A stretch of 37,390 nt of DNA from a virus: IMG/VR virus record IMGVR_UViG_3300027752_000048, positions 1 through 37,390 of that record; one strand, given 5' to 3'. Below the pieces are notes generated by a model. The model was given only the letters and a program-made list of their open reading frames with translations, was not told the origin of the DNA and did no database searches. The position numbers and the translations under genes were made by a program. Below are positions 1-37,390 of the stretch, piece after piece. The number at the start of each line of letters is the position of its first letter. Positions within the stretch are counted from its first letter, which is position 1.

Positions 1-104
1 AAATCTATCTCACTGGTCTTGCTCGCTGTTGGACTATAAGCCAGTTTTTGATCCTAAGTCAAATGCTAGCGACTAAGCCCCTTAATTGGGGCTTTTTTAT
101 TGCT
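1..104. repeat. Terminal overlap, copy 1 (identical to 36718-36821)
   Basis: These 104 bases recur exactly at 36718-36821. The match stops at base 104, a few bases before the stop codon of the gene at 112. The repeat holds most of a putative small RNA and its terminator but lacks that RNA's promoter, which is present only upstream of the second copy. I read it as the wrap-around overlap of a circular or circularly permuted genome, not as a functional direct terminal repeat, because the sequences beyond the two copies diverge completely. Confidence 0.9.
74..98 (+). terminator. Rho-independent terminator of a rightward small transcript (copy 1)
   Basis: An AAGCCCC/GGGGCTT hairpin is followed by a T-run on the plus strand only; the minus strand has no U-tract after the stem. 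No rightward protein gene lies upstream on the circle, so it most likely ends the small RNA starting near 36728 in the second copy. It also sits tail to tail with the leftward gene that ends at 112. Confidence 0.75.
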
Positions 105-111
105 TTAAAGA

Positions 112-561
112 CTAGGCTGATTTACTTGCAAACCAGCCTCTCAATGCTTTTGCGTGTTCGAGCAGTGAATCACCAGCACGTTCCATGCGCGAAGCATTTG
201 CCTCCACCTCAATTTCTGACATAACTTCTTTTCTCGCGTAGCTCTTGTCACCTTCTCGCTTAATTGGATAACGGTCTTGCAAGGTCAAACCAAAAAGATC
301 ATTACTTACACCATTAACAAAATCCTCTGCTTTTTCGACAGGATCATGTCTCATTGCAAGCCGTTGCCTGACCATTTGTTTAACGTGCATAGTCGAAGCA
401 AATTCAATCAACTGTGGCGAATGACAGTCAGGGTCAATCATATTAATAACCGCAACAGCAACAGCGTTGGTGCTAATAAAATCCACTTTTGCTTCTTCCA
501 TTGGCAATATTACTTGATCAATGAAAACATCTATTTGTGATGACAAACTATTTTTCAACAT
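112..561 (-). CDS. Hypothetical protein, variable locus allele A (149 aa)
   Basis: I do not recognise this protein. It is soluble, with an acidic N-terminal half and a basic, probably helical C-terminal half; no signal peptide or membrane segment is visible. Its ATG lies inside the last codons of the 198-aa gene upstream (14-nt overlap), so the two are probably translationally coupled. It is the last gene of the leftward operon and its TAG falls 7 bases from the shared 104-bp anchor. With its upstream partner it forms the 1.1-kb segment that is replaced by a different single gene at 36823-37284. Its position at the end of an operon in an exchangeable segment suggests optional cargo. Confidence 0.75.
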   Translation of the reverse strand: MLKNSLSSQIDVFIDQVILPMEEAKVDFISTNAVAVAVINMIDPDCHSPQLIEFASTMHVKQMVRQRLAMRHDPVEKAEDFVNGVSNDLFGLTLQDRYPIKREGDKSYARKEVMSEIEVEANASRMERAGDSLLEHAKALRGWFASKSA

Positions 562-1144
562 AATTATTTACCCATTCTTTTAGTTTAGGAATAAGGCTCA
601 ATGCCTCGTTGCTTTTCATGCCGTGTGTCCACTCATAAACAAGTGAATTTAGGCTCACATCAAACAGACCCATTTTGTCCATTCTAGAAAGTTCACCCCA
701 AATATATAGAGCGTTCTTGTCCATGCGTTTGGGTTCTGGCTCTGGTGTTGCAATAATGTGGCTTGCGCTAGGCTTAGTTCCAGGCATTGTGATGGCAGCC
801 TCAAACTCATCCTCTGGTACGTTGGCAAGTTTCTGCCATGTGCTGGATTGGTCTTTGGTGATGCCCATGTCGGATAGAGTTTTGATCTGCTTGGTCGAAT
901 CATCCGACTGAGCAGAATTAACGTGCTGGTTTCCTGTTGCCTTTTCAGTATCACGCAACATCTGCCCACACTTACGCTCTGCCCTTACTCGAATTAATGC
1001 ACACTGCCTTTCTGCTTCCATATTGTTTGCTTGCTTTGCGTAGGCCTCAAGAGCTACCGCTTTGTCACGAATATCTTTCACTTCATCTACTTTTTCACAA
1101 ATTTCAATGGCTGTGACCATCGCATCATACTTTACAAGTTCCAT
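548..1144 (-). CDS. Conserved phage protein of unknown function, allele A (198 aa)
   Basis: The sequence resembles a family common in phages and prophages, with an AVALEAYAKQANNMEAERQ helix, an RxRAERKCGQML segment (about 50-65) and the TLSDMGITKDQSSTWQKLA block with VPEDEFE (about 90-115). The family's function is not established; the charged helical N-terminus followed by a DMGITKDQSS-type segment looks nucleic-acid or partner binding. ATG 1144 is chosen because GGAG stands six bases upstream; a TTG at 1168 would add eight residues without a clear ribosome site. It overlaps the downstream 149-aa gene. It belongs to the exchangeable segment 105-1212. Confidence 0.8.
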   Translation of the reverse strand: MELVKYDAMVTAIEICEKVDEVKDIRDKAVALEAYAKQANNMEAERQCALIRVRAERKCGQMLRDTEKATGNQHVNSAQSDDSTKQIKTLSDMGITKDQSSTWQKLANVPEDEFEAAITMPGTKPSASHIIATPEPEPKRMDKNALYIWGELSRMDKMGLFDVSLNSLVYEWTHGMKSNEALSLIPKLKEWVNNYVEK

Positions 1145-1202
1145 GTTTTCTCCACGTAAATTAGTCAATCATATCTTACTGATTAGCTTAACGCTGCTGT
1201 TT

Positions 1203-1397
1203 TTATCGCTTGAGATAATATTCAGCAACCAGCTTGCCTTTTCTATCAACCATTATTGACTCTATCTGATGTCCCTTCCCTCTGAGATCAAAAATCCTAG
1301 CGGCTAAACGCAATGTTCCGAATTGCCGTACAGCTTCTAAGCTAGTTAGGCGATTACCCGTTTTTAAATGCCTTAAAATTTCGATTGATTGACTCAT
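1203..1397 (-). CDS. HTH_39-type winged-helix protein (64 aa)
   Basis: The whole protein matches the small phage helix-turn-helix family known as HTH_39: an ILRHLKTG start, SLEAVRQFGTLRLAARIFDLR as the helix-turn-helix, and a wing reading HQIESIMVDRKGK before the YYLKR end. Such proteins are probable DNA-binding regulators. The start at 1397 is fixed by AGGAGG upstream and by a TAATG overlap with the stop of the RHH gene. Its last codons lie at the boundary of the variable locus: here the protein ends YYLKR, while in the second allele (37285-37390) it ends YYLKS with its TGA inside an ATGA overlap with the next gene. Likely autoregulated or co-regulated with the RHH gene. Confidence 0.8.
   Translation of the reverse strand: MSQSIEILRHLKTGNRLTSLEAVRQFGTLRLAARIFDLRGKGHQIESIMVDRKGKLVAEYYLKR
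1213..1312. repeat. Terminal overlap, second anchor (identical to 37291-37390)
   Basis: These 100 bases, the 3' part of the HTH_39 gene, recur exactly as the last 100 bases of the window. The match begins just inside the final codons of the gene. Together with the 104-bp anchor it brackets two different sequences at the same place on the circle. The nearly equal, roughly 100-base length of both anchors suggests a graph assembler that stopped after one k-mer of shared sequence. Confidence 0.9.
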
Positions 1398-1606
1398 TAC
1401 TTTTCCTCCTGGTTTACAATTAAGTATTCGTCCCATGCGTTTTTCAGCAACTTTTGGATGTATGCAGTCATGTCCAAATGATGTGCTTTTGCGAGGATTC
1501 TCAACCGTTCTTTTTGAACATCATCTACGCGCATAATAAATTTTGGCTCTTCCGCCTTTTTCATTGCTTTATTCATTTTCCGCTGCATTTCACTAATCTC
1601 GGCCAT
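1397..1606 (-). CDS. Ribbon-helix-helix-like regulator (69 aa)
   Basis: After a charged N-terminal helix of about 22 residues, the core FIMRVDDVQKERLRILAKAH followed by MTAYIQKLLKNAWDEYL has the strand-helix-helix layout of Arc/CopG/MetJ-type DNA-binding proteins: a short alternating beta strand, a polar helix, and a hydrophobic second helix. CAGGAG precedes the ATG. It lies 59 bp downstream of the 72-aa gene and overlaps the HTH_39 gene by one base (TAATG), so the pair is co-translated. A near-perfect palindrome at 1629-1643 just upstream is a possible autoregulatory operator. Antitoxin function is not supported because no toxin-like partner is evident. Confidence 0.7.
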   Translation of the reverse strand: MAEISEMQRKMNKAMKKAEEPKFIMRVDDVQKERLRILAKAHHLDMTAYIQKLLKNAWDEYLIVNQEEK

Positions 1607-1628
1607 ACTTTTCTCCTGTTTTGCAATA

Positions 1629-1643: not shown

Positions 1644-1664
1644 GATTAAAATTTATTATCTAAA

Positions 1665-1883: not shown

Positions 1884-1920
1884 AATGTCGTACTCCGTTG
1901 TTGTGGTCTTGCGGAGGTTT

Positions 1921-1972: not shown

Positions 1973-2004
1973 GCAATCTCGGTTCACAAAAGAGAGTACA
2001 ACAA

Positions 2005-2181: not shown

Positions 2182-2182
2182 A

Positions 2183-2789: not shown

Positions 2790-3067
2790 AGTTATTTATT
2801 ATTTTAAGATTAAATGAATATGCTAATGATGGTTACGATTTTGGTGTCATTACAGAAAATAGATGGGAAATGTATGAAAATGATGAAGACATTCGTTTAA
2901 TCACTACAATTGATATTGATATAAATGATTATTCATCATTTCTTGCTATCCAATCTGAAGTATTAGCAGCGAAGCTTATTGAAAAAGCTAAAGTTGATAT
3001 GACAATGACTCTTGAAAAAGTTAAGGATTTTCAATCTAAATTTTTGTTAATTGGAGGCAGCGAATAA
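2786..3067 (+). CDS. Hypothetical acidic early protein (93 aa)
   Basis: An acidic protein beginning MKLFIILRLNEY, with an IDIDINDYSS segment and a lysine-rich helical C-terminus. I recognise no family. ATG 2786 is supported by the run of G at 2774-2778 and by the ATGA overlap with the preceding stop; an in-frame ATG five codons earlier would sit on the ribosome site. Its TAA overlaps the ATG of the annealing-protein gene (TAATG), so translation of the two is probably coupled. Confidence 0.65.
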   Translation: MKLFIILRLNEYANDGYDFGVITENRWEMYENDEDIRLITTIDIDINDYSSFLAIQSEVLAAKLIEKAKVDMTMTLEKVKDFQSKFLLIGGSE

Positions 3068-3822
3068 TGCCACAGTCTGAATCTATTTGGGAAAACCTGA
3101 GCGCGATTGACTGCTCAAAACACGTTGACAAGAAAGGGGGTTTTGATTATCTGGCTTGGACCTGGGCATGGGCTATGGTTAAAGATCATTACCCATTAGC
3201 CAATTACCGTTTAGAACCTGACGTACACTATGCTGACGGCTCAATGGAAGTCAGGGTGACAGTCATTATCGAAGATCAAGAAGCGATTATGTGGTTGCCT
3301 GTATTGAATTTCCGCAATCAAGCCATATCAAACCCCAACTCATTTGATATTAACTCTGCCAGGATGCGATGCTTAGTCAAATGTTGCGCTGTTGGATTTG
3401 GTTTAGGTCATTACATTTATGCAGGTGAATCAGCACCATCAGCACCAGTTGAAGAAACTTTCACGCCTGCGCAACTGGCATCATTCAATATGATGGTAGC
3501 AAACGGTGACGGCTGGGCAATCAAGCGGTTTGGCAAGGCATTAAAAGATGCTAATCAGCAGCACATTATGGATGATTTATTTAACTCTGCTCCCAAAGGC
3601 CAGATAACAGCCCTCAAGAGCAAAGTAAGAGAACTGGTACAATCAGCCAACTCTGAACTTAAAACGATTGTGGCGGCCTTGCAGGAGGCCATAGCGAATA
3701 ATTCAGGTGATTCTATTGAAGAAATCTATAATGAACTTGATCCTGAGAATATAGACATAGTAAATGCTGGTATGACCGAGATTGAGCATATTCAAATGAA
3801 AAAACTGACTGAGGAGGCGTGA
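3067..3822 (+). CDS. Single-strand DNA annealing protein, Sak3/DUF1071-like (251 aa)
   Basis: The N-terminal 120 residues carry the DUF1071 (Sak3-type) signature: IWENLSAIDCSKHVDKKGG, FDYLAWTWAWAMVKDHYP, LPVLNFRNQAI, and the FDINSARMRCLVKC-x-GLGHYIYAGE block. Proteins of this family are Red-beta/RAD52-superfamily recombinases that anneal complementary single strands during phage recombination and replication. The C-terminal 120 residues are helical, variable and probably mediate SSB or partner contacts. It is two genes upstream of an SSB gene. No partner exonuclease is recognisable nearby. Its TGA overlaps the next ATG (ATGA). Confidence 0.85.
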   Translation: MPQSESIWENLSAIDCSKHVDKKGGFDYLAWTWAWAMVKDHYPLANYRLEPDVHYADGSMEVRVTVIIEDQEAIMWLPVLNFRNQAISNPNSFDINSARMRCLVKCCAVGFGLGHYIYAGESAPSAPVEETFTPAQLASFNMMVANGDGWAIKRFGKALKDANQQHIMDDLFNSAPKGQITALKSKVRELVQSANSELKTIVAALQEAIANNSGDSIEEIYNELDPENIDIVNAGMTEIEHIQMKKLTEEA

Positions 3823-4474: not shown

Positions 4475-4482
4475 GGATGCCT

Positions 4483-4790: not shown

Positions 4791-4800
4791 GATTATTAAA

Positions 4801-5763: not shown

Positions 5764-5792
5764 GGCTATTATCCTTTGATAATTGCAATTAT

Positions 5793-7768: not shown

Positions 7769-7806
7769 TCGTTATTCCCCTGCGGCCTCTATAGCCATGT
7801 ATTAAA

Positions 7807-10572
7807 TTAATCTTCTGTAGAATATTCTGTTGCTTTTCCTGCGCCAACTAAAGCTATCATTATTTTTCTAGCCATTTCTGTTGAATTTTTTGCATTTACT
7901 AATTGTGCTTCATCTATGAATTTCTGAGGATCAAGAGACATATCTCTTAATGCTCTTATTAAAGCATCATACCCTTTGTCATCTTTAAGAGCATTTGCAA
8001 CAACTCTTTTTGTGGTTCCCGCTAAAATTAAACTGCTGCTACCAGTAAGTTGTAAAGCAAATGCCGCCACTACAGAAGAAGCTATTTTGTCTACTTCAGA
8101 TTCGGTTGGCTTTCTAAACGAACCATCTACTTGTTTTCTTAAATCGCTAACAACTGTCCTTAACAGCACTTCTTGCATACGATTTAATTCTTCTCCTTTT
8201 AACAGACCAGCTTGATTTAACCTATTTCTAAGATCATCAAATTTTTTCCGAGAAGCGGCATTCATTTTGCTATTGCCGTCAGTCAATACATCAGTTAATT
8301 CTTTTGCAACAGTCATCCTAAACGCATCTTTTTGCCCTGCGTCTGAAATTTCATTAAATACTTGACCAAGTTCTATAGCTTTTTTCTCAGTTTTGAACGC
8401 ATTCTTTATAAAGCTAGAAGGATCATTTTCATATCGCCCTAAAGGAGTTTGAGTTATAGCTTTTTTCTCAGCATTTGATGTTCTTTCTAATGTTTCTCTA
8501 GTTCGCTCTAAACCTTCTAAAGACTTTTGCTGATTTCCAATTTGACGTTGTTCTAAGTTTATTGCTCTAGTTAATGCTGTTTCACTGTTTCTAACAGCTC
8601 TGTCAGCTTGTTTTTCTGCTTCCACAGAATTTTTAGTTAATTCTTCTAAGGCTTTTTGTTCCTGTAATGCTTTTCTGCTGCTTTCTAATCCTGGCCTACC
8701 AAAGTTGCTTCCAGCAGCTATTTGTTGTGCTGGTGTTGCCTCGCCATAATTGCCAACAACAGCATCGGTATTCATAAGTTTTTGTTCGGCTTTATAAGGG
8801 GCGTAAGCAATCATTTCACTATCAAACAAGGATAATTCTTCAGGGTTTAACCCATCCCTAATAACTTCTTGTACACGACTTCTTAATGCAGATTGTTCAG
8901 GGCCACTAATTGCGTTATTGTCGAATGATTTTGCTGCTCTATTTGCAAAAAAGTTACGCAAAGTCATAATAGCGTTACCTGACATTTGACCGCTAAACAC
9001 TTCGTTTATATATTCATTTCTACTAAAATCTTCAGCAGTTTTGTCAGGGCGATCTATGCCTCTTGCGCGTCTAAATTCATCGGTAACCTTGTCAAAAAAG
9101 TCACCTAATTCTAATCTTGCAGTAGGAGTATCTAATGTTGCTTTTATTTGTGCGGCCAATTCATCAGGTAAAGTAAAGCCGCCTTCTTTGTTTTTGACTT
9201 CTTTAAAAGCATCAGTTTTCCAGTAATTTTGTACTGCGGCAAAACGCTCTAGCGGGTCATCCATATTTACACCGCTAGTAACTTCAGCTCGTTTTGCTTC
9301 TGGAATAGCATTTAGCGTTCGCTCTTTACCTGCTTCTCTAAAATCTGTAACGCTTTGCTGTTGGTTTATTGTCCTTTGTTGTATTTGATTTGCACGATCC
9401 TGCTGGAGCAACCGATTGGCTTCTAATTCGTCAAACTGTTGTGTTGGAGCTGTAATTGGCGCATCACGAACTTCACTTTCTTGAACGTTAATTTTGTCTA
9501 GCTCCGCATCCATTGCTTTAGTAACATCATTTGTTCTATCTTCTATTATTTTGGCGGCAGCAGTTACACTGGGGTCTAATATAGGGTTTCCTAAACTGTC
9601 AGCCGTTTCTCGCATTGGAATTCCAACACCTGAATCGTCAACTCTTAAAGGAAACGTAACATCATCTACAATTGCTTTATTTCTTTTTGCGTCTAAAACT
9701 TCTAGATCATCTATATATTTTTGAGTTTCAGCTCCCCCACCTGATTGATTTTTTAACAATTTTTCTACACGCATTATTCCAGTATCTTTTGCTACTTCTC
9801 CAAGTGTACCTATTGCCCCATCTCGCACTGCGCGGTCAACATCAATAATTAACTGATCTACAGTTTTTCCTGCTTGTTCAGCAAACAAATTTATGGCTTC
9901 TAGGTCTTGATCTGTGGCTTTTCCTTTTTTCAAAGCCAGCACAGAAGTAACAAGCCCAGTAGTTATTTCTCCTATATCACCAAAAGCATACTGGCCTAAT
10001 CCCGCTGCTGTGGCTATAGCACCAGTAATTGCTAGTGCTTTTGGTGCAAAACTTCCAGGCTGAAGCCACTCAGCCGTACTTCTTATTGCATTTGCAATTT
10101 TAGCTTGCGGGTTTTGTTTAATTTGTTCTGGAGAATATAAAGGTTGTGAAAATTCATCAACCGCAGGGCCAGCAATAGGAATTTCTTTTAAAAAATCTGT
10201 AACTTTTGGGATTTTACCTAAAATAATATTAGCAGGAGCAGGTAAATATCGGGCCGCAGAAGATATATCTTCTTCAGTAACATTATTTACTCCTGGAAGT
10301 TTATTGATTGCATACGCAGCAGCAGTTTTACTTAAGCCAGATAACATTGAAGGGGCATCAAGAGTATCGCCATACCCTGAAGGAAAGCCTCCTAAAGCGT
10401 GTCTCGCGCTGTTAGCAAGACTAACCTCGTTTTCAGGAGCTACATTATTATTTTTTGGTGTAACAGATTCGTTAAAAAGAGCTAATTCTTCTGGCGTAAG
10501 AGTGCCAAGCCTGTTATTAACGCTTTCTGGCTTTAATAATTCTAGTTCTTTTTCCGTTAAAGGAGTAGCCAT
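7807..10572 (-). CDS. Large internal virion/ejection protein (921 aa)
   Basis: The largest gene of the window. The protein has an N-terminal segment with repeated LTEKELELLKPES / LTPEELALFNES motifs, a region around 60-240 with alternating Gly/Ala-rich hydrophobic stretches (ALAITGAIATAAGLGQYAFG), and a long helical, coiled-coil and Gln/Glu-rich remainder, with another hydrophobic stretch near 835-860. This build and its place at the end of the tail genes resemble the internal ejection proteins of podoviruses that form a trans-envelope conduit. No lytic transglycosylase motif is visible. The assignment rests on context and composition. Confidence 0.65.
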   Translation of the reverse strand: MATPLTEKELELLKPESVNNRLGTLTPEELALFNESVTPKNNNVAPENEVSLANSARHALGGFPSGYGDTLDAPSMLSGLSKTAAAYAINKLPGVNNVTEEDISSAARYLPAPANIILGKIPKVTDFLKEIPIAGPAVDEFSQPLYSPEQIKQNPQAKIANAIRSTAEWLQPGSFAPKALAITGAIATAAGLGQYAFGDIGEITTGLVTSVLALKKGKATDQDLEAINLFAEQAGKTVDQLIIDVDRAVRDGAIGTLGEVAKDTGIMRVEKLLKNQSGGGAETQKYIDDLEVLDAKRNKAIVDDVTFPLRVDDSGVGIPMRETADSLGNPILDPSVTAAAKIIEDRTNDVTKAMDAELDKINVQESEVRDAPITAPTQQFDELEANRLLQQDRANQIQQRTINQQQSVTDFREAGKERTLNAIPEAKRAEVTSGVNMDDPLERFAAVQNYWKTDAFKEVKNKEGGFTLPDELAAQIKATLDTPTARLELGDFFDKVTDEFRRARGIDRPDKTAEDFSRNEYINEVFSGQMSGNAIMTLRNFFANRAAKSFDNNAISGPEQSALRSRVQEVIRDGLNPEELSLFDSEMIAYAPYKAEQKLMNTDAVVGNYGEATPAQQIAAGSNFGRPGLESSRKALQEQKALEELTKNSVEAEKQADRAVRNSETALTRAINLEQRQIGNQQKSLEGLERTRETLERTSNAEKKAITQTPLGRYENDPSSFIKNAFKTEKKAIELGQVFNEISDAGQKDAFRMTVAKELTDVLTDGNSKMNAASRKKFDDLRNRLNQAGLLKGEELNRMQEVLLRTVVSDLRKQVDGSFRKPTESEVDKIASSVVAAFALQLTGSSSLILAGTTKRVVANALKDDKGYDALIRALRDMSLDPQKFIDEAQLVNAKNSTEMARKIMIALVGAGKATEYSTED

Positions 10573-17815: not shown

Positions 17816-17844
17816 CATTTAATTTGTTAAATAACAAAATCATA
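17816..17844. repeat. 29-bp direct repeat, copy 1, at the 3' end of spike gene 2
   Basis: A 29-bp sequence beginning CATTTAATTTG and ending CAAAATCATA covers the stop codon of the spike gene at 17840 and is repeated exactly at 19547-19575, where it covers the stop codon of the upstream spike gene. It contains a short hairpin (TTGTTA/TAACAA). The copies bracket the whole 17840-19537 spike gene as a cassette. Confidence 0.85.
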
Positions 17845-19537
17845 ACTTAATTCTCAATTCGCCTGTTGGGGTTTGATAAGCATCACCTGTAGCTAATGAT
17901 CCCGCTGCTGCTTCATCAGCAAAAACTGGCATTCCAGGCATATTCAGCACTGTGCTGTTAATATGCAATTTTGTAACTCCACCAACATCTATATTTAAGC
18001 GATTATTCGGGCTATCCCAATATATGCGAGTGCCGTCATCTGAATCAGCAAAGCCTTTAAAATTCTGTATACTCACAAATGTCCAGTCTACTCCTCCGTC
18101 AGACTGAGTGCCGCTAGTCCATGTTGGTGGTGTACCGCCTGATGTGCCAAGGCTAGCCGCTTGGTAAATGCGTAAAGCGTTGTAGACATAATCACCTGAT
18201 GCGTAAACTGTACCACTGAGCCACTGAGGCGCGCCTTTAAGTTGCGAGCAGGTCGTGTTGAAATATATAGACTGGTCAGCTTTTAACGCGATAGCTCTGT
18301 CTATTGTGTTAGACGTAGAAAAGTCAATACCGTTGCGCCAATTACCTGTGAGCTGTAAACCTGAGTCTATTGGTTCTGAGCCGTAAGATTGACCACGCAA
18401 AAAAATCCAAGCCTGATCTTTGCCGTTGTCTGGCGCGTTCCTGCTCATATTAAACACGCAAGCCTTGCCAGTCGATGAATGACCATTATCTTCAAGGTTC
18501 ATTTCTATGTTTTGCATGACTACATTAGGCTGTGCTGTCCTTACTGTTCCAATAAGAATGCCAGAAGCAGGTACTCCGCGCATCATTAGGATGTCTGGGT
18601 CTTGTGTGTTCATAAACACATCCCAGCGTCCGACCCATGCGCCTCCCTTGCCAACGTGAGACACAATGCGCGTGTCCAGATTCCATGCTGTGCGACCACC
18701 AGTAGTAAATGAGGCCGCGTTTTTACCGCTTGCAAAATAGCCGCTAGATCGTTCACCCGATAGCTCAAAGATCGTAGTAAAGTTTCCTTCAGACTCTGGC
18801 GTAAAAGGTGGATTTCCTGCTGTATCCTCGCCAGTAATTACATACTGGTATGTGTTGGGTGTCTTAAAGTCTCCATCAAATGCCTGAACAGGGTTATTAC
18901 TTGCCCCTACATTAGCCACTGGTTCATGAATAGCGACAAACGTCTTGCCTCTTTGGGTAATTACGCCACTGTCTGTTGTCAGCATAGGCGACTGGCCTTG
19001 AGTAGCCATTGTGGGTGTTGTGGCAACACCTGTGCCGTAAACAGGCGTACTGCCATTTTCTATTGTCACCGTGCCAGTAGCGGCCACTGCGGCCTCTATT
19101 GCGGCAGTGTCGTTTGTAACACCATCACCTACAGCTCCGTACTGTTTGGCGGCAACAAACCCAGTTGTAAACAGTTGCCGCCATTGAACGCTAACGCCAT
19201 CAATAAAAGAGCCTCCGTCTGCTGTGCCTGTTCCTAAAGCAACTGCTACAAAGGTCATCAGTCCAGCATCGTTTCCAACCGCGTAATCTGAGCATTGCAC
19301 TGTATCACCGACACTATAGCCAGTAGCAAGTGCCATCTGCGCTACTGAAGGAAAAGACGCTACTATTACGTTTGTTAATGACGAGCCGTCACCAATAAAA
19401 AAATCAGCTTTAATATTTCCAGAAACTTCTAATTTTTCAGTAGGATCGGTTGTATTAATGCCTGTTTTAGACTGAGTAAAATACAATTGATCTTGATCAT
19501 TTTCGCCTATAAATACTGATGGCTTGTTAATAGACAT
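17840..19537 (-). CDS. Tail spike 2, pectate-lyase-type beta-helix entry motif (565 aa)
   Basis: The first 130 residues (SINKPSVFIGENDQDQLYFTQ, TEKLEVSGNIKADFFIGDGS, CSDYAVGNDAG, GSFIDGVSVQW) are nearly the same as those of the spike at 19571, so both use the same virion attachment module. KQYGAVGDGVTNDTAAI (about 134-150) is the classical entry into pectate-lyase-3 beta-helix spikes. The middle receptor/enzyme region is unrelated to the paralogue. A short conserved C-terminal cap (MPGMPVFADEAAAG, GDAYQTPTGELRI) is shared again. ATG 19537 is chosen to match the paralogue; GAGAG precedes it. Confidence 0.8.
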   Translation of the reverse strand: MSINKPSVFIGENDQDQLYFTQSKTGINTTDPTEKLEVSGNIKADFFIGDGSSLTNVIVASFPSVAQMALATGYSVGDTVQCSDYAVGNDAGLMTFVAVALGTGTADGGSFIDGVSVQWRQLFTTGFVAAKQYGAVGDGVTNDTAAIEAAVAATGTVTIENGSTPVYGTGVATTPTMATQGQSPMLTTDSGVITQRGKTFVAIHEPVANVGASNNPVQAFDGDFKTPNTYQYVITGEDTAGNPPFTPESEGNFTTIFELSGERSSGYFASGKNAASFTTGGRTAWNLDTRIVSHVGKGGAWVGRWDVFMNTQDPDILMMRGVPASGILIGTVRTAQPNVVMQNIEMNLEDNGHSSTGKACVFNMSRNAPDNGKDQAWIFLRGQSYGSEPIDSGLQLTGNWRNGIDFSTSNTIDRAIALKADQSIYFNTTCSQLKGAPQWLSGTVYASGDYVYNALRIYQAASLGTSGGTPPTWTSGTQSDGGVDWTFVSIQNFKGFADSDDGTRIYWDSPNNRLNIDVGGVTKLHINSTVLNMPGMPVFADEAAAGSLATGDAYQTPTGELRIKL

Positions 19538-19546
19538 ACTGTCTCT

Positions 19547-19575
19547 CATTTAATTTGTTAAATAACAAAATCATA
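19547..19575. repeat. 29-bp direct repeat, copy 2, at the 3' end of spike gene 1
   Basis: Exact copy of 17816-17844, covering the end of spike gene 1 and the leader of spike gene 2. Together with the highly similar 5' ends of the two spike genes it offers homologous sequence on both sides of the variable spike middle, suitable for gene loss, duplication or exchange. Confidence 0.85.
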
Positions 19576-21088
19576 CTCTAATCTTTAAATCTCCACCTAA
19601 TGTTTGATAAAGATCACCTTCAAGTAATCCTCCTGTTACAGCATCGGCATTATTAGCAAAAGTTGGCAGTCCTGGCATATTTTGTTGCCCAGTGTGTTCA
19701 ACTGATGAGCCGTTATAGCTTGACCAGAATAATCCTGGGTCTGGAGATACATAGCCATTTTGTGGCGTTGCTGGCGTAGCGTTGTAACAAATTCTGTGGC
19801 CTTCAGCCATGTTCAACGCACTAAAATGCAATGGTTTAGTAGGATCAACAGGATTAACAGTATTAACAAGAACTCCAGCACTGCAATCAAACGCAGCTTT
19901 GGCTGGCCCTATTGCTGTATAAATAACATCAATATCCGCATGAACTGTTGTTCCCTGACTTCGGCCCATGTAGCAAAATTGATCTGCATGATAAGCGGGT
20001 GCGCTTTGATGGCTTACATCATTCTGTCCATTAGCGTTAAGCAACACTACAATGCCACGCATTGCTACAGTCTGATAAGCGTTATCTTCTAATAAAATAT
20101 CGCCCCAGCCGTATAGCGTTACTTGATTTGACCCCGCACTAATTTGGCCATCGCCCATGCCTACATTATTGTGGTCACCAGAAAATAAATAAGGTGCTTC
20201 AACCGTTGATCTATCTGCTGGTTTTGTAACAAACGCATTTGAAGTTATATTATATGCGTCACCTTGGCCTCCGTGGTTCATTCCTAATCTAAACGAAGAT
20301 ACTCTAGTGCGCCCTTGACGCGGATCACCTGGTGCAATAGGAAGAGCAAGTTGCTTGCCCCATTGATTAATTACACGGATGTCTTGTGCTTGCCCAGTAA
20401 TTAACCCTACATAATCTCCTGGTTCAATTTGAGGGCTAGGATCATCTGCTGTTTTATTCGTCTTATTAATGTCGATATATTCTTTTTCTTGAATAGACAA
20501 TCGAGGGAACCAATTACTGGGTGCTAGAAGATCAATGACAGCCTTTGCTGACAGTCGAAAGGTACTATCGTCTCCGAAATCAAGTCTAGAATAATATGTG
20601 CCATCAGGTACTAGCCAGTTCTCGTGAGAGCTGTTCTGGATAATATTGAATACGGCTGTATTATCGGTAACTCCATCTCCAACAGCTCCGTATTGTTTAA
20701 TTGACCGTATACTAGCAGTAAACAATTGTTGCCACTGAACGCCAACTCCATCAATAAAAGCGCCACCGTCTGCTACACCTGTGCCTGTTGGTACTGCTAC
20801 AAAAAACATAACGCCCGCATCGTTTCCGACTGCGTAGTCTGAACACTTTACAACATTACCGACACTGTATTCAGTAGCAGCCGCCATTTCTGCCACTGTA
20901 GAAAAAAACTCCGATGACAAATCAGTCAATAATGAGCCATTGCCAATAAAAAAATCAGCTTTAATATTTCCAGAAACTTGCAGTTTTTCAGTAGGATTAG
21001 TTGTATTTATCCCTGTTTTAGCTTGGGTAAAATACAATTGATCTTGATTGCTGTCACCTATAAATACTGATGGTTTATTAATAGACAT
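19571..21088 (-). CDS. Tail spike 1 (505 aa)
   Basis: Residues 1-130 match the attachment module of the 565-aa spike (FIGDSNQDQLYFTQAKTG, KADFFIGNGSLLTD, GAFIDGVGVQWQQLF), and KQYGAVGDGVTDNTAVF marks the start of a probable beta-helix. The receptor region (about 165-450) is different: Gly/Asn-rich with repeated short strands. The C-terminal cap (MPGLPTFANNADAVTG, GDLYQTLGGDLKI) is again shared. Presumably binds or depolymerises a host surface glycan. No catalytic residues can be named from sequence alone. Two spikes with one anchor and two receptor domains suggest a branched or dual-specificity adsorption apparatus. Confidence 0.8.
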   Translation of the reverse strand: MSINKPSVFIGDSNQDQLYFTQAKTGINTTNPTEKLQVSGNIKADFFIGNGSLLTDLSSEFFSTVAEMAAATEYSVGNVVKCSDYAVGNDAGVMFFVAVPTGTGVADGGAFIDGVGVQWQQLFTASIRSIKQYGAVGDGVTDNTAVFNIIQNSSHENWLVPDGTYYSRLDFGDDSTFRLSAKAVIDLLAPSNWFPRLSIQEKEYIDINKTNKTADDPSPQIEPGDYVGLITGQAQDIRVINQWGKQLALPIAPGDPRQGRTRVSSFRLGMNHGGQGDAYNITSNAFVTKPADRSTVEAPYLFSGDHNNVGMGDGQISAGSNQVTLYGWGDILLEDNAYQTVAMRGIVVLLNANGQNDVSHQSAPAYHADQFCYMGRSQGTTVHADIDVIYTAIGPAKAAFDCSAGVLVNTVNPVDPTKPLHFSALNMAEGHRICYNATPATPQNGYVSPDPGLFWSSYNGSSVEHTGQQNMPGLPTFANNADAVTGGLLEGDLYQTLGGDLKIRV

Positions 21089-30895: not shown

Positions 30896-31210
30896 CTAGC
30901 GCGACTTAGCCACAGCAAGAATCTGTAGGACAATGGTTGGCACAATAAAGAACTGAGTAATGTGGCCTAGTATATACGCCCAATCCTTACCAAAAACAGA
31001 TTCCTTTGTTAATACGGGAAACAGATACCGCAAATTCTCAACGTCCATATTTGTGTAGCTATGGCCTACTTGTGCAATGCACCACAACAGCCGAGTACCG
31101 CACTGCCCATTGCCTTCAGTAGTAACGTAATCTTTCTTGGCAATCTCTAGTCTTTCTTTATATGCATCTATTTTATGGTACGTATTCATTTTATGTGATC
31201 TCTTATCCAT
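30896..31210 (-). CDS. Hypothetical protein with C-terminal membrane segment (104 aa)
   Basis: A charged N-terminal half (YKERLEIAKKDYVTTEGNGQ) is followed by one likely membrane helix near the C-terminus (about 78-98, YILGHITQFFIVPTIVLQILAV). The start at 31210 overlaps the preceding stop; ATG 31189 (NTYHKIDAYK) is an alternative with AGAGA upstream. It is unusual to find a membrane protein between the terminase subunits. The function is unknown. Confidence 0.6.
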   Translation of the reverse strand: MDKRSHKMNTYHKIDAYKERLEIAKKDYVTTEGNGQCGTRLLWCIAQVGHSYTNMDVENLRYLFPVLTKESVFGKDWAYILGHITQFFIVPTIVLQILAVAKSR

Positions 31211-31655
31211 CTAGTCCTGATCGAGGCAAGTCATTACTAATGCGTATGTTAACGTCTCCAACCAAACCCTGAGTGGGTTGTAGATTAGGAACCATTTTAA
31301 CAAGGTGATTAAGATATTTGCTGGGGTTTTCTCTAGCCCACTCTAATATCCAGTCTTCACCGCCTAGTCGCATAAAAACATTAGAGTAAACACCCATGAG
31401 AGGGTGCTGAGAATGCAGAGAGTTAATGACAAGCTGATTAGCAGATGAGTCAACATTTGCACGTTTATCTCCTTCTTCTCGCGCTTCTTCTTCCGCTAAA
31501 GCAATGTTTGTTTTTCTGTATTCTCGAATAGAATCATGGACAAACTCAGTGTAATCACCACCACTGGCTTCCATTAACTCACAAGTGAAATCAAATAATT
31601 TAAGACTCTCTGGCCTTTCCTCATAATGATCGTATGTATCGCCTACCCTGTCCAT
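31203..31655 (-). CDS. Putative terminase small subunit (150 aa)
   Basis: It is the first gene of the late leftward operon, three genes upstream of TerL. The N-terminal half is acidic and helical (LKLFDFTCELMEASGGDYTEFV, then a charged helix). The C-terminal half has GGEDWILEWARENPSKYLNHLVKMVPNLQPTQG and ends with NDLPRSGLDG, the pattern of small terminase-associated proteins in related phages. No classical helix-turn-helix is obvious, so the assignment is mainly positional. Transcription is likely from the promoter at 31720-31748. Confidence 0.6.
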   Translation of the reverse strand: MDRVGDTYDHYEERPESLKLFDFTCELMEASGGDYTEFVHDSIREYRKTNIALAEEEAREEGDKRANVDSSANQLVINSLHSQHPLMGVYSNVFMRLGGEDWILEWARENPSKYLNHLVKMVPNLQPTQGLVGDVNIRISNDLPRSGLDG

Positions 31656-32976: not shown

Positions 32977-33102
32977 ATGAGCAATCTACCCGAGCCAACA
33001 CAATCGCAAGGTGATTTATGGGATCGATACTGCGTTTACGTAGCATGCGTACAAGGCAGCGGCGAGCACGTTAAATCTTTCGAGGAGTGGTTAGAATCAT
33101 GA
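32977..33102 (+). CDS. Small acidic protein upstream of the GP88-like gene (41 aa)
   Basis: A 41-residue frame from ATG 32977, after an AGGAG at 32963-32967: SNLPEPTQSQGDLWDRYCVY then ACVQGSGEHVKSFEEWLES. It is acidic with two Cys and ends in an ATGA overlap with the GP88-like gene, suggesting a coupled partner or leader. No family recognised. Confidence 0.55.
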   Translation: MSNLPEPTQSQGDLWDRYCVYVACVQGSGEHVKSFEEWLES

Positions 33103-33980
33103 AAATTCAAACACTGGCAAACATCACGCAAGCTATTGGATCGCAAGACTATAAGAAAGCTATAATGGCAATCGATAGCGCACTAATAGGCGAGCACGGC
33201 GCACACTGGCATCGCGATTTCAAAAAGCTTAAAACCTTCCTATTAGATGATAACAGAGCGCCTCTATTTACTATCATCCGAAAGGAAAGCGGCGAGGGTA
33301 AACTTGGCAAGGGCTTTCTATCGTTTTCAGTGTTGCCCGACATTACATGTCCTGGCGCTGGCGATTGCCTGCAGTATTGCTATTCCTTCAAAGCACATCG
33401 ATATCCTGCAGCATACTCAAGGCGAGCCCAAAACACTGTATTAATGCAAACAAAAGCTGGGCGCGCTCAAATCATTGCCGCCATTGATCACTTGGCATCA
33501 AAGCGTACAGGTAACATCGATTTTCGCTTGTATGTCGATGGCGATTTTAGCAGTGGCGGTGACGTAGCGTTCTGGATGACACTGTTAAAAGAGAATGCAT
33601 GGCTTCAAACCTATGGCTACAGTAAATCCTTTCTTGAGCTACTAGGCTATGACGCGGCGCACAATTGGCCTGCTAATTATCTGTTAAACCTATCAGAAGG
33701 TCACAAGCACAATCAGTCTATTGTGGACCTGGTAAGCGCCCTACCAATTTGTCGCGGTTCTTTCGGCGCGATCCTTACAATTGGAAAGCACAAGCCAACA
33801 CAATGGAAAACAAGCGCCTACCGAAAGGACATTCTAGCGCAACACAAGGCCAAGACTGGACGCAAAGCTTTCGTATGTGGTGGTAGGTGCGGCGCTTGTA
33901 TTACTCGCCAGGGTATTAACATGCATGCATGTGGTGACCGTCAATTTGACAATGTCGACATTATTATCGCGGTCCACTAG
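33099..33980 (+). CDS. GP88-like cysteine-rich phage protein (293 aa)
   Basis: FLSFSVLPDITCPGAGDCLQ with C84, C90 and C94, then YCYSFKAHRYPAAYSRRAQN, resembles the N-terminal signature of the mycobacteriophage Gp88-type family, and the C-terminal CGGRCGACI ... HACGDRQ matches its second Cys cluster. The central region (NIDFRLYVDGDFSSGGDVAF, then SKSFLELLGY) has the strand/helix alternation of a TIM-barrel, so a metal- or Fe-S-binding enzyme, possibly radical-SAM-related, is conceivable. The family's function is unknown to me. ATG 33099 overlaps the 41-aa gene. It is followed by a strong terminator, so the pair forms a self-contained cassette. Confidence 0.65.
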   Translation: MKIQTLANITQAIGSQDYKKAIMAIDSALIGEHGAHWHRDFKKLKTFLLDDNRAPLFTIIRKESGEGKLGKGFLSFSVLPDITCPGAGDCLQYCYSFKAHRYPAAYSRRAQNTVLMQTKAGRAQIIAAIDHLASKRTGNIDFRLYVDGDFSSGGDVAFWMTLLKENAWLQTYGYSKSFLELLGYDAAHNWPANYLLNLSEGHKHNQSIVDLVSALPICRGSFGAILTIGKHKPTQWKTSAYRKDILAQHKAKTGRKAFVCGGRCGACITRQGINMHACGDRQFDNVDIIIAVH

Positions 33981-34022
33981 AAGCGTATACACTGTTTTAA
34001 GTGTACTCAATAGCACTATAGC

Positions 34023-34043
34023 GCCCCTTCACTGGGGCTTTTT
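34023..34043 (+). terminator. Terminator of the GP88 cassette
   Basis: GCCCC, a 6-nt loop, GGGGC and five T form a rho-independent terminator. A second hairpin (TACACT/AGTGTA, 33988-34005) lies just upstream, and a third (AACGGCA/TGCCGTT, about 34056-34073) follows. It shares the 15-mer GGGCTTTTTAGGTAG with the terminator at 32895-32918. Confidence 0.85.
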
Positions 34044-34110
34044 AGGTAGTACCGAACGGCACGGTTTGCCGTTAAATAGGAATCATTAAACAGAATAGGG
34101 GCATATGATC

Positions 34111-34314
34111 ATGATTTTTGATTACTCAAGCAAAAAAGACTTAAAGGCCAATATAGGCAAGCCATTAAAATATCAAGAAACTAGCCTTTTTGGGGCGCAA
34201 TATCTGGATAATGGCACATTGTATGGTTCTAACCGTCCGCATATGACTGGGCATAAACGCGAATTTTTTGCGAATGTCGTAATGAAAAATGGGCTAATTG
34301 AAAAGGTAGGTTAA
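34111..34314 (+). CDS. Small conserved hypothetical protein (67 aa)
   Basis: A compact basic protein: IFDYSSKKDLKANIGKPLKY, then ETSLFGAQYLDNGTLYGSNR and REFFANVVMKNGLIEKVG. The 'FDYSSKKDLK' start and 'NGxLxGxNRPH' segment look like a family of small proteins carried on mobile elements; the function is unknown. ATG 34111 is preferred over 34105 because GGGG lies nine bases upstream rather than three. First gene of the third rightward cassette. Confidence 0.6.
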   Translation: MIFDYSSKKDLKANIGKPLKYQETSLFGAQYLDNGTLYGSNRPHMTGHKREFFANVVMKNGLIEKVG

Positions 34315-34318
34315 AATC

Positions 34319-34450
34319 ATGGATATAAACAAAGAAACTTCTACAGTAAAACTCTCGGCTGCTGACATTATTGTAGACGCAATGCTAGCAGGCAAGATCA
34401 CTAAAACTGAAGCTATTGTACTTCTTAAGGCGATTGGTTTTTCTAAGTAA
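34319..34450 (+). CDS. Small helical protein (43 aa)
   Basis: ATG 34319 lies four bases after the preceding stop. The 43-residue frame DINKETSTVKLSAADIIVDA then MLAGKITKTEAIVLLKAIGF looks like a small two-helix domain. A clear ribosome site is the AGG at 34307-34309. It is tightly spaced in the cassette. No family recognised. Confidence 0.5.
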   Translation: MDINKETSTVKLSAADIIVDAMLAGKITKTEAIVLLKAIGFSK

Positions 34451-34478
34451 ATATTAGACGTTAAAAGGAAAAACAATT

Positions 34479-34637
34479 ATGCAAATCAAAAAAACAATGC
34501 TGCACCTATCAATTGAGATGCAGCAAAAGAACAATTATGTTAGGGCTAGCTACCCTGGCAAGCTATCTGACTGGATTAAATCCACATTAGATGATGAAGT
34601 GGCACGGTTGAAGGCTCAGGTAGTCAATAAGCTGTGA
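34479..34637 (+). CDS. Small hypothetical protein (52 aa)
   Basis: AAAGGA stands about eight bases before ATG 34479. The product QIKKTMLHLSIEMQQKNNYV then RASYPGKLSDWIKSTLDDEV ends in a helix with VARLKAQVVNKL. Its TGA overlaps the GTG start of the next gene (GTGA). Function unknown. Confidence 0.55.
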   Translation: MQIKKTMLHLSIEMQQKNNYVRASYPGKLSDWIKSTLDDEVARLKAQVVNKL

Positions 34638-34867
34638 AAAATTATTTGCTACAGCCCATTTTAGCCCAAATAACAAAGTTACGGGCTAGAATGGGCGACA
34701 ACACATCGCCAGCCGCTGAAATAGTGGCAGGACGTTACGCTAATGGCTCAAAAATCAGGGCCAGCGTACATAATAGGCGTATTTTACGTTTAATAAACTT
34801 AGAAAAACGTGCATCAATTCTATTGACTGAGGATTTTGAGCGATTTATTGCTAAAACTGGATTTTAA
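34634..34867 (+). CDS. Hypothetical basic protein, GTG start (77 aa)
   Basis: The product is basic (KNYLLQPILAQITKLRARMG, then GRYANGSKIRASVHNRRILR) with a short helical end. The start codon is GTG, overlapping the stop of the preceding gene. Its stop overlaps the convergent HNH gene by four bases, with no terminator visible at the junction. A nucleic-acid-binding role is possible from its charge only. Confidence 0.6.
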   Translation: MKNYLLQPILAQITKLRARMGDNTSPAAEIVAGRYANGSKIRASVHNRRILRLINLEKRASILLTEDFERFIAKTGF

Positions 34868-35265
34868 TTATAACTGACTAGATCGGTAGAATTTTCGCGC
34901 ACCATTCGCCTGTATTCCTCCCTATAATGCTTGGCAATTTCTAACCGTATTGGCTTAGTTGTTTTAAAAATGGCGCGTTTCTTTTCGCGTAGTATATCAA
35001 GCCTGCCCTCCCCAAATTCAGCTAATAGCCAATCATTAAAATCTAACGGATTTTCGGTAAATTTTCTGTGGCATCCTGAGCATAAACAACAACAATTTTC
35101 CACGCACCAGCGCGTACTTTTATTGGAACGGCCTACAATGTGACAGCATTCCAGACCCTGCACTAGACCCGCAAACCCTCGATGACAATGTTCACATTGA
35201 TAGCCAGCAGCATGACGAATGCAATCTGAAAACCATTTATCTGCACTATCGCGTTTAATTGCCAT
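34864..35265 (-). CDS. HNH-type zinc-finger endonuclease-like protein (133 aa)
   Basis: The sequence has a treble-clef layout: YQCEHCHRGF, LECCHIVGRSN, CLCSGCHRKFTENPLDFNDW, where the first CxxC and the later CxxC would bind zinc and CCH plus the Asn/His positions form the HNH active site. The C-terminus is basic and helical (AKHYREEYRRMVREN). Related small HNH proteins in phage replication regions resemble NinG-type nucleases. It is the last gene of the leftward replication-accessory operon, one base after the stop of a probable overlapping small gene. Confidence 0.75.
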   Translation of the reverse strand: MAIKRDSADKWFSDCIRHAAGYQCEHCHRGFAGLVQGLECCHIVGRSNKSTRWCVENCCCLCSGCHRKFTENPLDFNDWLLAEFGEGRLDILREKKRAIFKTTKPIRLEIAKHYREEYRRMVRENSTDLVSYN

Positions 35266-35266
35266 T

Positions 35267-35398
35267 TTATGTCCCGTTAGCTAAAAACACCGCTTTAGCA
35301 AATCCTTGAGGGGCTGCACTGCGAATATTAGCACGTTCAGGACCAGGGGATTGATTTTGATTCTCTCGGCAAATCAGGCAAAACCACTTGTAACTCAC
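35267..35398 (-). CDS. Possible overlapping small two-Cys protein, GTG start (43 aa)
   Basis: A frame from GTG 35398 reads SYKWFCLICRENQNQS then PGPERANIRSAAPQGFAKAV and LANGT before a TAA one base from the HNH start. The CLIC pair, the reasonable composition and the exact fit to the next ATG support coding; the first 62 bases overlap the preceding gene in another frame. No strong ribosome site is seen before the GTG. It fills the otherwise unexplained 71-bp gap. Confidence 0.4.
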   Translation of the reverse strand: MSYKWFCLICRENQNQSPGPERANIRSAAPQGFAKAVFLANGT

Positions 35399-35660
35399 TG
35401 GCTGCCCATTTCTGTAAGCCAGTTACCACTACATCAATATCATTATTATCCATATTTTCCGTAGAATTGAGTGCTGAAACGGCTTGTAAACAGGGTTTGA
35501 ATACATTTTCTTTAAATCCTGCCGCGGTCCAGGTGAAAATAATGGCTTCCCGTTCACTCAATTTTTTCAGTGCTACAGCCTGATCCACGCCTGATTGATT
35601 CAATAAATCCGCCACCATCTCGAACCAACTGTGTAGACTTCCACGTTGTGACTTTGTCAT
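35337..35660 (-). CDS. Conserved replication-region phage protein (107 aa)
   Basis: It opens TKSQRGSLHSWFEMVADLLN, matching a family of short phage proteins that begin MTKxQRxxLHxWFxxxAxxLN and occur beside replication or Holliday-junction genes; the middle (FTWTAAGFKENVFKPCLQAV) and the DIDVVVTGLQKW segment fit the same family. The precise function is not known to me. Its ATG overlaps the stop of the 52-aa gene (ATGA). Confidence 0.65.
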   Translation of the reverse strand: MTKSQRGSLHSWFEMVADLLNQSGVDQAVALKKLSEREAIIFTWTAAGFKENVFKPCLQAVSALNSTENMDNNDIDVVVTGLQKWAASELQVVLPDLPRESKSIPWS

Positions 35661-35815
35661 ACACGCCTCCAGTTTATCCGTACATGGCTCTTAATTAACC
35701 CCTCCCAATCTGATGGGGCAGAGTTTAAAATCGCGCTAGTGCGCTCCCTGACGTTTTTACGCCCTTTTAAGGCTAATATCTGGGCCGCATAATGTCTAGG
35801 CCGTTTATTCACCAT
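35657..35815 (-). CDS. Small RPRHYA-type phage protein (52 aa)
   Basis: The frame VNKRPRHYAAQILALKGRKN then VRERTSAILNSAPSDWEGLI and KSHVRINWRRV is basic and helical. 'KRPRHYAxQIxAL ... H(V)' is a pattern of short phage proteins in replication operons; the role is unknown. It overlaps the preceding gene by seven bases and the following one by four. Confidence 0.65.
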   Translation of the reverse strand: MVNKRPRHYAAQILALKGRKNVRERTSAILNSAPSDWEGLIKSHVRINWRRV

Positions 35816-36060
35816 TTTTTGCTTAACCACTTCTTGGCAGGTGTTTTATATATATATCGAGTCACTGTGCCTTGCGCAGAATTATTCTCAATTTTAGTCA
35901 ATAAATTACGTTCGCACATATCTCGAAGCAATCCAGTTGTGTCCGATGCGTTAATTCCAATTAAGCTGCTAGCCGTTGCCGCTGAAAATGGACTTTTTGA
36001 CTGACAGCATTCGCTCTCCAAAATTTTAGCGATTCTTTTTTCTCGACGCTCACAAGTCAT
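35809..36060 (-). CDS. Winged-helix-like small protein (83 aa)
   Basis: The product (REKRIAKILESECCQSKSPF, then ATASSLIGINASDTTGLLRD, then NLLTKIENNSAQGTVTRYIY) follows the helix-helix-recognition helix-beta wing pattern of a winged helix-turn-helix. It could be a transcriptional regulator or a replication adaptor. Its ATG overlaps the stop of the preceding gene (ATGA). No specific family can be named. Confidence 0.6.
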   Translation of the reverse strand: MTCERREKRIAKILESECCQSKSPFSAATASSLIGINASDTTGLLRDMCERNLLTKIENNSAQGTVTRYIYKTPAKKWLSKKW

Positions 36061-36428
36061 GTGTACCGCACCCCGTTTTCAAAACATTGCCCATATTTCT
36101 CAATAAAATGTTTACGCATTTCAATATCGCCTATGAAATTGTGGCTAAGGTCGTCCAGGCTAGTCATGTCACGGGTTGCCAGAGTTGCGCTCTGCTTTTT
36201 TTCAGGCGAAAAAGGTGATTTACCGCCATTTTGTTGCGCTCTTGATAGCCAACTATTACAAAATTGACCCATTTTAGTTTTACGCTTGGCAGGATTGGCA
36301 TCACACCAGCCAGCCATTGCATTTAACTCTTGATAAACGTCAACATTCGGATATAAAGACTGCCACTTGAGTATCTGCGCAGTATCAGGCTCCCAATAAC
36401 TTCCGTCCTTTCTGATTATTGCTGTCAT
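36057..36428 (-). CDS. Putative replication accessory protein, DnaT/replisome-C-terminal-like (123 aa)
   Basis: Residues 1-65 (KDGSYWEPDTAQILKWQSLY, NVDVYQELNAMAGWCDANPA, KRKTKMGQFCNSWLSRAQ) match a module often found at the C-terminus of phage replication initiator/DnaT-like proteins, 'LYPxVDVxxELxxMxxWxxANPxKRKTxxGxxxFxxxWLxR'. The remainder is variable and charged. Here the module stands alone without an initiator domain. GGAG precedes the ATG. It is the first gene of the leftward block at 36.4 kb. Confidence 0.65.
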   Translation of the reverse strand: MTAIIRKDGSYWEPDTAQILKWQSLYPNVDVYQELNAMAGWCDANPAKRKTKMGQFCNSWLSRAQQNGGKSPFSPEKKQSATLATRDMTSLDDLSHNFIGDIEMRKHFIEKYGQCFENGVRYT

Positions 36429-36690
36429 TTAATTCTCCACAGTTCGTCTAATGAGGGCTATTGTTGCCCTATAGTATAATTCGCTTAGTCCAATATCATC
36501 CAGTAATCAGCAACCATTTTAAGCTGGTAAGACTCGCCCCATACTACTGGCAACAATCCGCTGTTTATCCCGCCCTCATAGGTCGGATGATAATTCTGGC
36601 TTTATTACGCGGCTGCACCATGAGACAGCACTGTTTAAACAGGCGTGACTGTGGCGAGAATGAACAGTAAGAGAGGTAAAAACTATCAGA
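36429..36690. other. Gene-free segment upstream of the leftward replication block
   Basis: No convincing gene. On the minus strand TATACT (plus 36473-36478) could be a -10 for the gene starting at 36428, but I see no good -35; an AGGGC/GCCCT hairpin (36454-36470) would stand at the very 5' end of that mRNA. The stretch 36500-36660 seems more GC-rich than its surroundings and holds two overlapping opposite open frames without good starts: rightward (LAPYYWQQSAVYPALIGRMI) and leftward (NSGLLPVVWGESYQLKMVAD). Their meaning is unclear; a gene remnant or a structured RNA are both possible. Confidence 0.4.
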
Positions 36691-36721
36691 CTTGCAATGT
36701 TGATAGTCTTAGGTGTAAAAT
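36682..36721 (+). promoter_or_regulatory. Promoter and operator-like palindrome of the small RNA
   Basis: TTGCAA (36692-36697), an 18-bp spacer and TAAAAT (36716-36721) form a rightward sigma70-type promoter. Arms ACTATCA (36682-36688) and TGATAGT (36701-36707) are perfect inverted repeats whose centre coincides exactly with the centre of TTGCAA. A repressor bound there would cover the -35 box. Confidence 0.55.
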
Positions 36722-36821
36722 CTATCTCACTGGTCTTGCTCGCTGTTGGACTATAAGCCAGTTTTTGATCCTAAGTCAAATGCTAGCGACTAAGCCCCTT
36801 AATTGGGGCTTTTTTATTGCT
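36718..36821. repeat. Terminal overlap, copy 2 (identical to 1-104)
   Basis: Exact copy of bases 1-104, after which the sequence diverges from that following base 104. It marks the left border of the variable locus and contains the small RNA body and terminator. The upstream promoter and operator exist only here because the window starts inside the repeat. Confidence 0.9.
36728..36817 (+). ncRNA. Putative phage small RNA of about 90 nt
   Basis: Transcription from the promoter at 36692-36721 would start near 36728 and end at the terminator (36791-36815, AAGCCCC/GGGGCTT plus T-run). Between them there is no reading frame with a ribosome site, but there are short complementary segments, for example CTGG near the start with CCAG about 25 nt on, and GGACT with AGTC. 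The RNA is convergent to whichever cargo gene occupies the variable locus. It is invariant between the two alleles. Confidence 0.5.
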
Positions 36822-36822
36822 G

Positions 36823-37284
36823 TTATTTTGGTGCTGTGTACTCCATCAAAAGTTTAAATTTTACAACAGGTATTTCATAGAGCTGCTCTGCCCTGTCACT
36901 TTCCCTCTCCTTTGTTTTGCGCGTCTGCTCAACAACATTATAGCCTTCTCGCAGCTTGCACCACATCAAGCCTGTATCTTTCCAAAGCACTATCAAAACG
37001 GGAGGTATCTTCATATAATTGCCCCACTTTATTAGTTTGTCGATTTTGATTTTACTAATTGTCAAAGCATCGTACCGACCTATTGAAGTAGTGGGCCTGT
37101 GCCTGAATTCTACGATAGCTGCGACAACTTGCAAATTGTTAATCTGCTCGGAAAAAATAAAATCGAAAGGTGAGTATTCATCCCGCATATTAATTGCAGT
37201 TAGATTAAAATAACTGCTTATGCAATAAGAAACGTCTTGCTCTATTTTTTTTGCTGCATCAAAGTCACGATTATTGTTAATCAT
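36823..37284 (-). CDS. PD-(D/E)xK-like nuclease candidate, variable locus allele B (153 aa)
   Basis: The order FDFIFSEQ ... VVAAIVEFRHRP ... KIDKLIKWGN followed by IPPVLIVLWKD is that of a restriction-endonuclease-like fold: Asp in FDFIF, Glu in VEFRHR two residues before an Arg in place of the usual Lys, and a helix plus hydrophobic strand after it. This is suggestive only. The ATG overlaps the TGA of the allele-B HTH_39 gene (ATGA), and the TAA is two bases from the 104-bp anchor, so this gene exactly replaces the two genes of allele A. It may be a defence, anti-competitor or DNA-processing function. Confidence 0.55.
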   Translation of the reverse strand: MINNNRDFDAAKKIEQDVSYCISSYFNLTAINMRDEYSPFDFIFSEQINNLQVVAAIVEFRHRPTTSIGRYDALTISKIKIDKLIKWGNYMKIPPVLIVLWKDTGLMWCKLREGYNVVEQTRKTKERESDRAEQLYEIPVVKFKLLMEYTAPK

Positions 37285-37390
37285 GATTTTAGATAATATT
37301 CAGCAACCAGCTTGCCTTTTCTATCAACCATTATTGACTCTATCTGATGTCCCTTCCCTCTGAGATCAAAAATCCTAGCGGCTAAACGCA
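37285..37390 (-). CDS. HTH_39 gene, 3' part, allele B (partial)
   Basis: The last 106 bases encode the C-terminal part of the HTH_39 winged-helix protein of 1203-1397, identical over 1213-1312, with the final codons changed so that it ends YYLKS and its stop TGA overlaps the next start. The window ends within the gene. It is not a second gene copy but the wrap-around of the circle. Confidence 0.8.
37291..37390. repeat. Terminal overlap, second anchor (identical to 1213-1312)
   Basis: The last 100 bases equal 1213-1312. The match ends only because the window ends. It is the right border of the variable locus. Confidence 0.9.

Follow-up and report, generated by a model that had tools for sequence, protein, structure and literature searches.

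The locus described here raises the question of whether two unrelated pieces of DNA, found between the same flanks at opposite ends of one viral contig, occupy two places in a genome or are two variants of a single place. The window analysed is the whole of IMG/VR virus record IMGVR_UViG_3300027752_000048 (37,390 bases).

The flanks, the inserts and their genes

We compared the window with itself by string comparison. Results from this showed two direct repeats, a left one of 104 bp and a right one of 100 bp that reaches the contig end, both exact and maximal. Between them lies unrelated DNA, allele A at the start of the contig and allele B at its end:

1..104, no strand: left flank copy 1, terminator region, identical to 36718-36821 by string comparison
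105..1212, minus strand: allele A insert, 1,108 bp, two genes, from string comparison and ORFs
1213..1312, no strand: right flank copy 1, 3' end of the HTH_39 gene, identical to 37291-37390
36718..36821, no strand: left flank copy 2, identical to 1-104 by string comparison
36822..37290, minus strand: allele B insert, 469 bp, one gene, from string comparison and ORFs
37291..37390, no strand: right flank copy 2, up to the contig end, identical to 1213-1312

These data agree with the original prediction of equal flanks around unrelated interiors, and neither repeat can be extended. The flanks are the top two direct repeats by length in the window; the four remaining exact repeats of at least 20 bp are about 21-37 bp long and lie elsewhere. 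When 36718-37390 was used as a query against its own record, the search returned itself and the flanks and nothing more. Two exact matches of about 100 bp that bound one position are not due to chance. The circles implied by them are 36,717 bp with A and 36,078 bp with B. Allele A has a G+C content of 42% and allele B one of 38%, compared with 41% for the whole window. No near relative at the DNA level was found in the phage collection for window positions 1-8000 or 33000-37390, and a 38-base flank pattern matched no second IMG/VR record in a search that may omit near-identical records. Separately, exact direct repeats of about 22-37 bp occur within 17816-21048, around the tail-fibre-like genes at 17840-19549 and 19571-21088 and the preceding gene, suggesting related or recombining fibre genes.

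The slot genes and both of their neighbours are all on the minus strand. The genes and signals in and around the slot, together with two genes used below, are:

112..561, minus strand: A149, allele A gene 2, 149 aa, without a family match
548..1144, minus strand: A198, allele A gene 1, 198 aa, residues 6-119 matching phrog_33995
1203..1436, minus strand: HTH_39 winged-helix gene, right border of the slot (PF14090, E 1e-13)
1397..1606, minus strand: ribbon-helix-helix-like small gene upstream of HTH_39, from weak profile matches below cut-off
3067..3822, strand not given: Sak-like annealing protein gene
34864..35265, minus strand: NinG-like gene (phrog_5034), query for finding relatives
36057..36428, minus strand: O-like replication-region gene, 123 aa, first beyond the slot, with homologues directly behind HTH_39 in many phages
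36792..36811, plus strand: intrinsic terminator, a hairpin and then a T-run, left border of the slot, with a similar hairpin directly behind the HTH_39 stop of the relative L004
36823..37284, minus strand: allele B gene, 153 aa, PDDEXK_14 (PF24579 match), with an ATGA overlap with HTH_39

The HTH_39 gene scored 51.4 bits against PF14090, for which the cut-off is 21.3. Alleles A and B both end no more than about 12 bp from the terminator T-run, and the gene at 36057-36428 lies about 390 bp beyond the slot; its position points to an O-like function. Pasteurella phage Pmp11 has a lambda-like order of a CII-like gene, an HTH_39-matching gene, an O-like gene and a helicase gene. On the other side of the slot, the gene at 1397-1606 is 90% identical in L004. 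This gene and a divergent small gene at 2005-2181, both kept in L004, flank an apparent early control region. The gene at 33087-33980 matches PF17338 'Gene product 88' (E 3e-19).

It had been proposed that the swaps leave stop/start overlaps intact. This holds for B, where the start codon and the HTH_39 stop overlap as ATGA, but not for A, where a short gap separates the HTH_39 stop (1203-1205) from the A198 start (ATG at 1144; TTG at 1168 is also possible). Allele B alters the last residue of the HTH_39 protein, which ends in YYLKS* with B versus YYLKR* with A.

Within allele A, A198 and A149 overlap by 14 bp. The match of A198 to phrog_33995, a family of unknown function, has an E-value of 3e-12, and searches with A198 returned a single partial match (43%) in viral contigs plus three weak hits in phages. 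None of Pfam, PHROGs, PADLOC and NCBIfam gave a match for A149, and searches of phages and viral contigs found no relatives of it. Residues 13-144 of the 153 in the allele B protein match PF24579 (PDDEXK_14), described as 'phage putative PDDEXK endonuclease', at 27.8 bits versus a Pfam cut-off of 25 (E 3.3e-6). The protein carries SPFDFIF...AIVEFRHR which, if so aligned, would give E-x-R rather than E-x-K. Sequence search found no solved-structure relative of B, and searches of phages and viral contigs found no relatives. The PF24579 profile gave 0 matches in 14 related records, as did its control, which makes this count uninformative. The structure models of A149 (made without an alignment, pLDDT 44) and of B (from the single sequence, pLDDT 38) were kept out of fold searches. 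Defence-system models matched none of A149, A198 and B.

The same junction in related phages

L004 is a locus on a 19,874 bp contig (G001; IMG/VR 3300025071_000078) that is 73-93% identical to the window across matched stretches; a scan with p107 returned solely this contig. It contains, in unbroken order, the counterpart of window 29.5-35.7 kb, the terminator, the HTH_39 gene and the Sak-like gene at about 3.5 kb, the last two within its match to window 1.2-3.6 kb; therefore, the two ends of the window are adjacent in a relative. The shared flanks at both ends and this synteny across them support the idea that the genome is circular, as had been predicted. In L004 the HTH_39 stop leads immediately into the hairpin, and the slot is empty (CTGAAGCGATAA AAAAGCCCCTTACGGGGCTTAG). 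BLAST placed window positions 36789-36821 and 37288-37390 side by side there (G001 18059-18089 and 18089-18191). As judged from its sequence, L004 is the empty-site allele of the slot. Past the hairpin, the replication genes of L004 (they encode an HTH_36 protein and a possible relative of lambda P) differ from those of the window, so that exchange occurs on a larger scale too and not in the slot alone.

Protein searches with the O-like and NinG-like genes gave 55 loci, in 29 of which an HTH_39 match and an O-like gene occur together. We distinguish group 1 (L012-L042) and group 2 (L052-L062). In group 2, HTH_39 is joined directly to O in L055 and L058, and the junction is filled in L057 (59 aa), L061 (96 aa), L053 (about 95 aa) and L052 (two genes, 97 and about 70 aa). 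When pairs from this group were compared, both flanks were 82-97% identical and the HTH_39/O junction was the sole large break within the approximately 3.3 kb compared. About 20 loci of group 1 have HTH_39 and the O-like gene next to each other, and some of these loci share a contig or lie on nearly identical contigs. In L035 an N6/N4 DNA methyltransferase sits precisely between the two, and its flanks match L012 at 95% and 91% identity; in L031 and L033 a 112-aa gene replaces HTH_39. Group 1 has further variable junctions that receive genes (at about -205 and +370 relative to O), so the HTH_39/O slot is one of several. A C5-cytosine methyltransferase (L019/L036) and a second N6/N4 methyltransferase (L011) lie just before the O-like or HTH_39-like gene. 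DNA-modification genes (methyltransferases, Mom) occur both in the slot and beside it. The Mom-family gene (PF25680) is in group 1, at 3083-3655 of L040, directly upstream of an HTH_39-like gene.

No relatives of the A or B cargo were found at the HTH_39/O site in other phages, and two scans of bacterial genomes (with an O-like alignment and with NinG) confirmed no relatives. Accessory genes are thus repeatedly found at the HTH_39/O junction, a slot with a regulator gene on one side and an O-like replication gene on the other. The view of the locus as a hypervariable cargo slot is borne out by the empty site of L004 versus A versus B and by variable filling in two more distant groups, where related phages have empty sites and other small genes or a methyltransferase. 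We are doubtful about a stronger version, in which the junction would be a dedicated, actively exchanged counter-defence slot (for DNA modification, nucleases and small inhibitors) that is common to several distant phage groups and has alternative cargoes side by side in single populations.

How both alleles came to lie on one contig

The window very probably derives from a circularly closing lambdoid-type phage of which the A and B variants of one accessory slot were assembled together. The genome would be circularly closing or circularly permuted and about 36-37 kb, with a slot that extends from the HTH_39 stop codon to the terminator hairpin, before the O-like gene. Two variants would co-exist, A with two genes of unknown function and B with a putative nuclease of the PD-(D/E)XK family. 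The contig would start in one branch of an assembly bubble, round the circular genome and end in the other branch. Strain and mosaic variants of phages are known to produce bubbles and branching paths in assembly graphs (Phables, PMC10563150). The likeness is that mosaic variants of one phage branch the graph; the difference is that here both branches lie within one linear contig, at its ends (PMC10563150). The window flanks are similar but unequal in length (104 versus 100 bp), so that a particular assembler k-mer cannot be named.

A second contig ends in a comparable way. G007 (IMGVR_UViG_3300021375_000106, 31,439 bp) has the HTH_39/O locus at both ends, at 1-521 and 30919-31439 (L018 1-521 and L017 5850-6370). 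The two copies are 94.4% identical over 521 bp and their first 80 bases are identical. This suggests that virus collections hold more such allele-pair contigs. With G007 likewise ending in two divergent copies of the locus, the prediction that the assembly walked both branches of a population bubble is the best-supported reading. A and B would then have co-existed in one sample; that a duplication on one molecule or a chimera placed them on this contig is much less likely.

Read literally, the deposited contig would have A and B on the same DNA, either linear or integrated, with the flank duplicated, for example through partial tandem duplication or dimerisation of two variants. This is very improbable. 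Such a duplication would need both of its limits to coincide with the contig ends, about 100 bp beyond the variable part, and the relative has a simple circular order with a single slot. Moreover, between the repeats we recognised one terminase, one portal, one Sak-like and one NinG-like gene, which is one genome's worth.

A misassembly is also a highly unlikely source. Only about 100 bp ties each contig end to shared sequence, and the ends could come from two phages that have only the flank in common, one of them otherwise unlike the rest. However, both alleles are in the correct register and orientation, B even overlapping HTH_39 by ATGA, and the same junction varies between close relatives elsewhere. 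What separates a chimera of this kind from the assembly of two slot variants is solely the degree of similarity between the A and B genomes beyond the slot.

A pair of cleanly bordered alleles might also be expected from a programmed cassette switch, in which site-specific recombination swaps A and B within one lineage. We find this scarcely credible, since the genome has no further copy of a flank or cassette elsewhere, the flanks are merely a gene 3' end and a terminator, and no recombinase was recognised among the slot-adjacent genes. Identical terminal redundancy as in pac phages was rejected because the end regions are non-identical, and programmed inversion because A and B are unrelated and co-oriented and inverted sites are absent.

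Under the reading of two slot variants assembled together, the variants would probably arise by recombination in or near the conserved flanks, as in other lambdoid phages, and the Sak-like protein is encoded at 3067-3822. Selection would keep only joins that leave the flanking genes and the operon intact. When strain variants of a circular genome are assembled, a two-ended contig of this type is a standard result.

Expression, known systems and meaning

A strict moron is cargo with its own promoter and terminator that is expressed from the prophage. For the cargo here, the ATGA overlap of B with HTH_39 suggests expression with an operon; B looks like a probable member of the early operon. No promoter above chance level was found at allele B. 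The cargo is probably expressed with the early operon.

The slot had also been predicted to be bounded by the terminator of a small RNA, and one candidate is:

36692..36815, plus strand: possible OOP-like antisense small RNA, weak, with a promoter-like TTGCAA-18-TAAAAT and the terminator

The terminator part of this prediction stands. The hairpin and T-run are clear in the sequence and similar in L004. The small-RNA part is weaker. The promoter-like element at 36692-36721 is a 9/12 match, and the candidate RNA would run about 90-100 nt to the hairpin, antisense to the operon. The region folds more stably than shuffled sequences (z -3.1, a value that includes the terminator hairpin). Because promoter-like matches show no excess over shuffled sequence and no Rfam family matched, we treat an OOP-like small RNA ending at this terminator as a lead only. 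As a comparison, lambda OOP RNA lies between cII and O, and 52 bases of oop overlap cII (PMC5869508). The candidate is like OOP in its position between regulator and O, in being on the opposite strand and in having a hairpin terminator on the regulator side; by contrast, its terminator is behind cargo, its promoter is weak and the transcript is a putative one (PMC5869508).

P2-like phages and their P4-like satellites have hotspots of antiviral genes which, as seen here, combine a fixed locus in related phages with variable cargo (PMC9122126). Compared with the hotspots of those P2/P4 elements, the slot is at another position and A149, A198 and B have no match to defence models (PMC9122126).

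It is a reasonable inference that the cargo has a role in conflict with host restriction; it would probably serve phage-host conflict over DNA, through modification or nuclease functions. The mode of exchange, the expression and the function of the cargo are all put forward here as probable.

Lambdoid phages show mosaic gene exchange and carry morons in the early region between the regulator and O. The locus is like lambdoid mosaicism in that accessory genes are exchanged at gene boundaries between regulator and replication genes and in that a Sak-like protein is present. It differs in that the slot is bordered by an HTH_39 protein and the A and B cargo has no named relatives. The biology is standard phage mosaicism at a newly delineated site. 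Any DNA that separates the HTH_39 stop from the O-like gene is likely to be cargo, which gives a defined place to search for small phage accessory genes of unknown function. In addition, a virus record that lacks simple identical end repeats can nonetheless represent a complete circle with one locus present as two alleles. Natural allele pairs could therefore be harvested from existing records.
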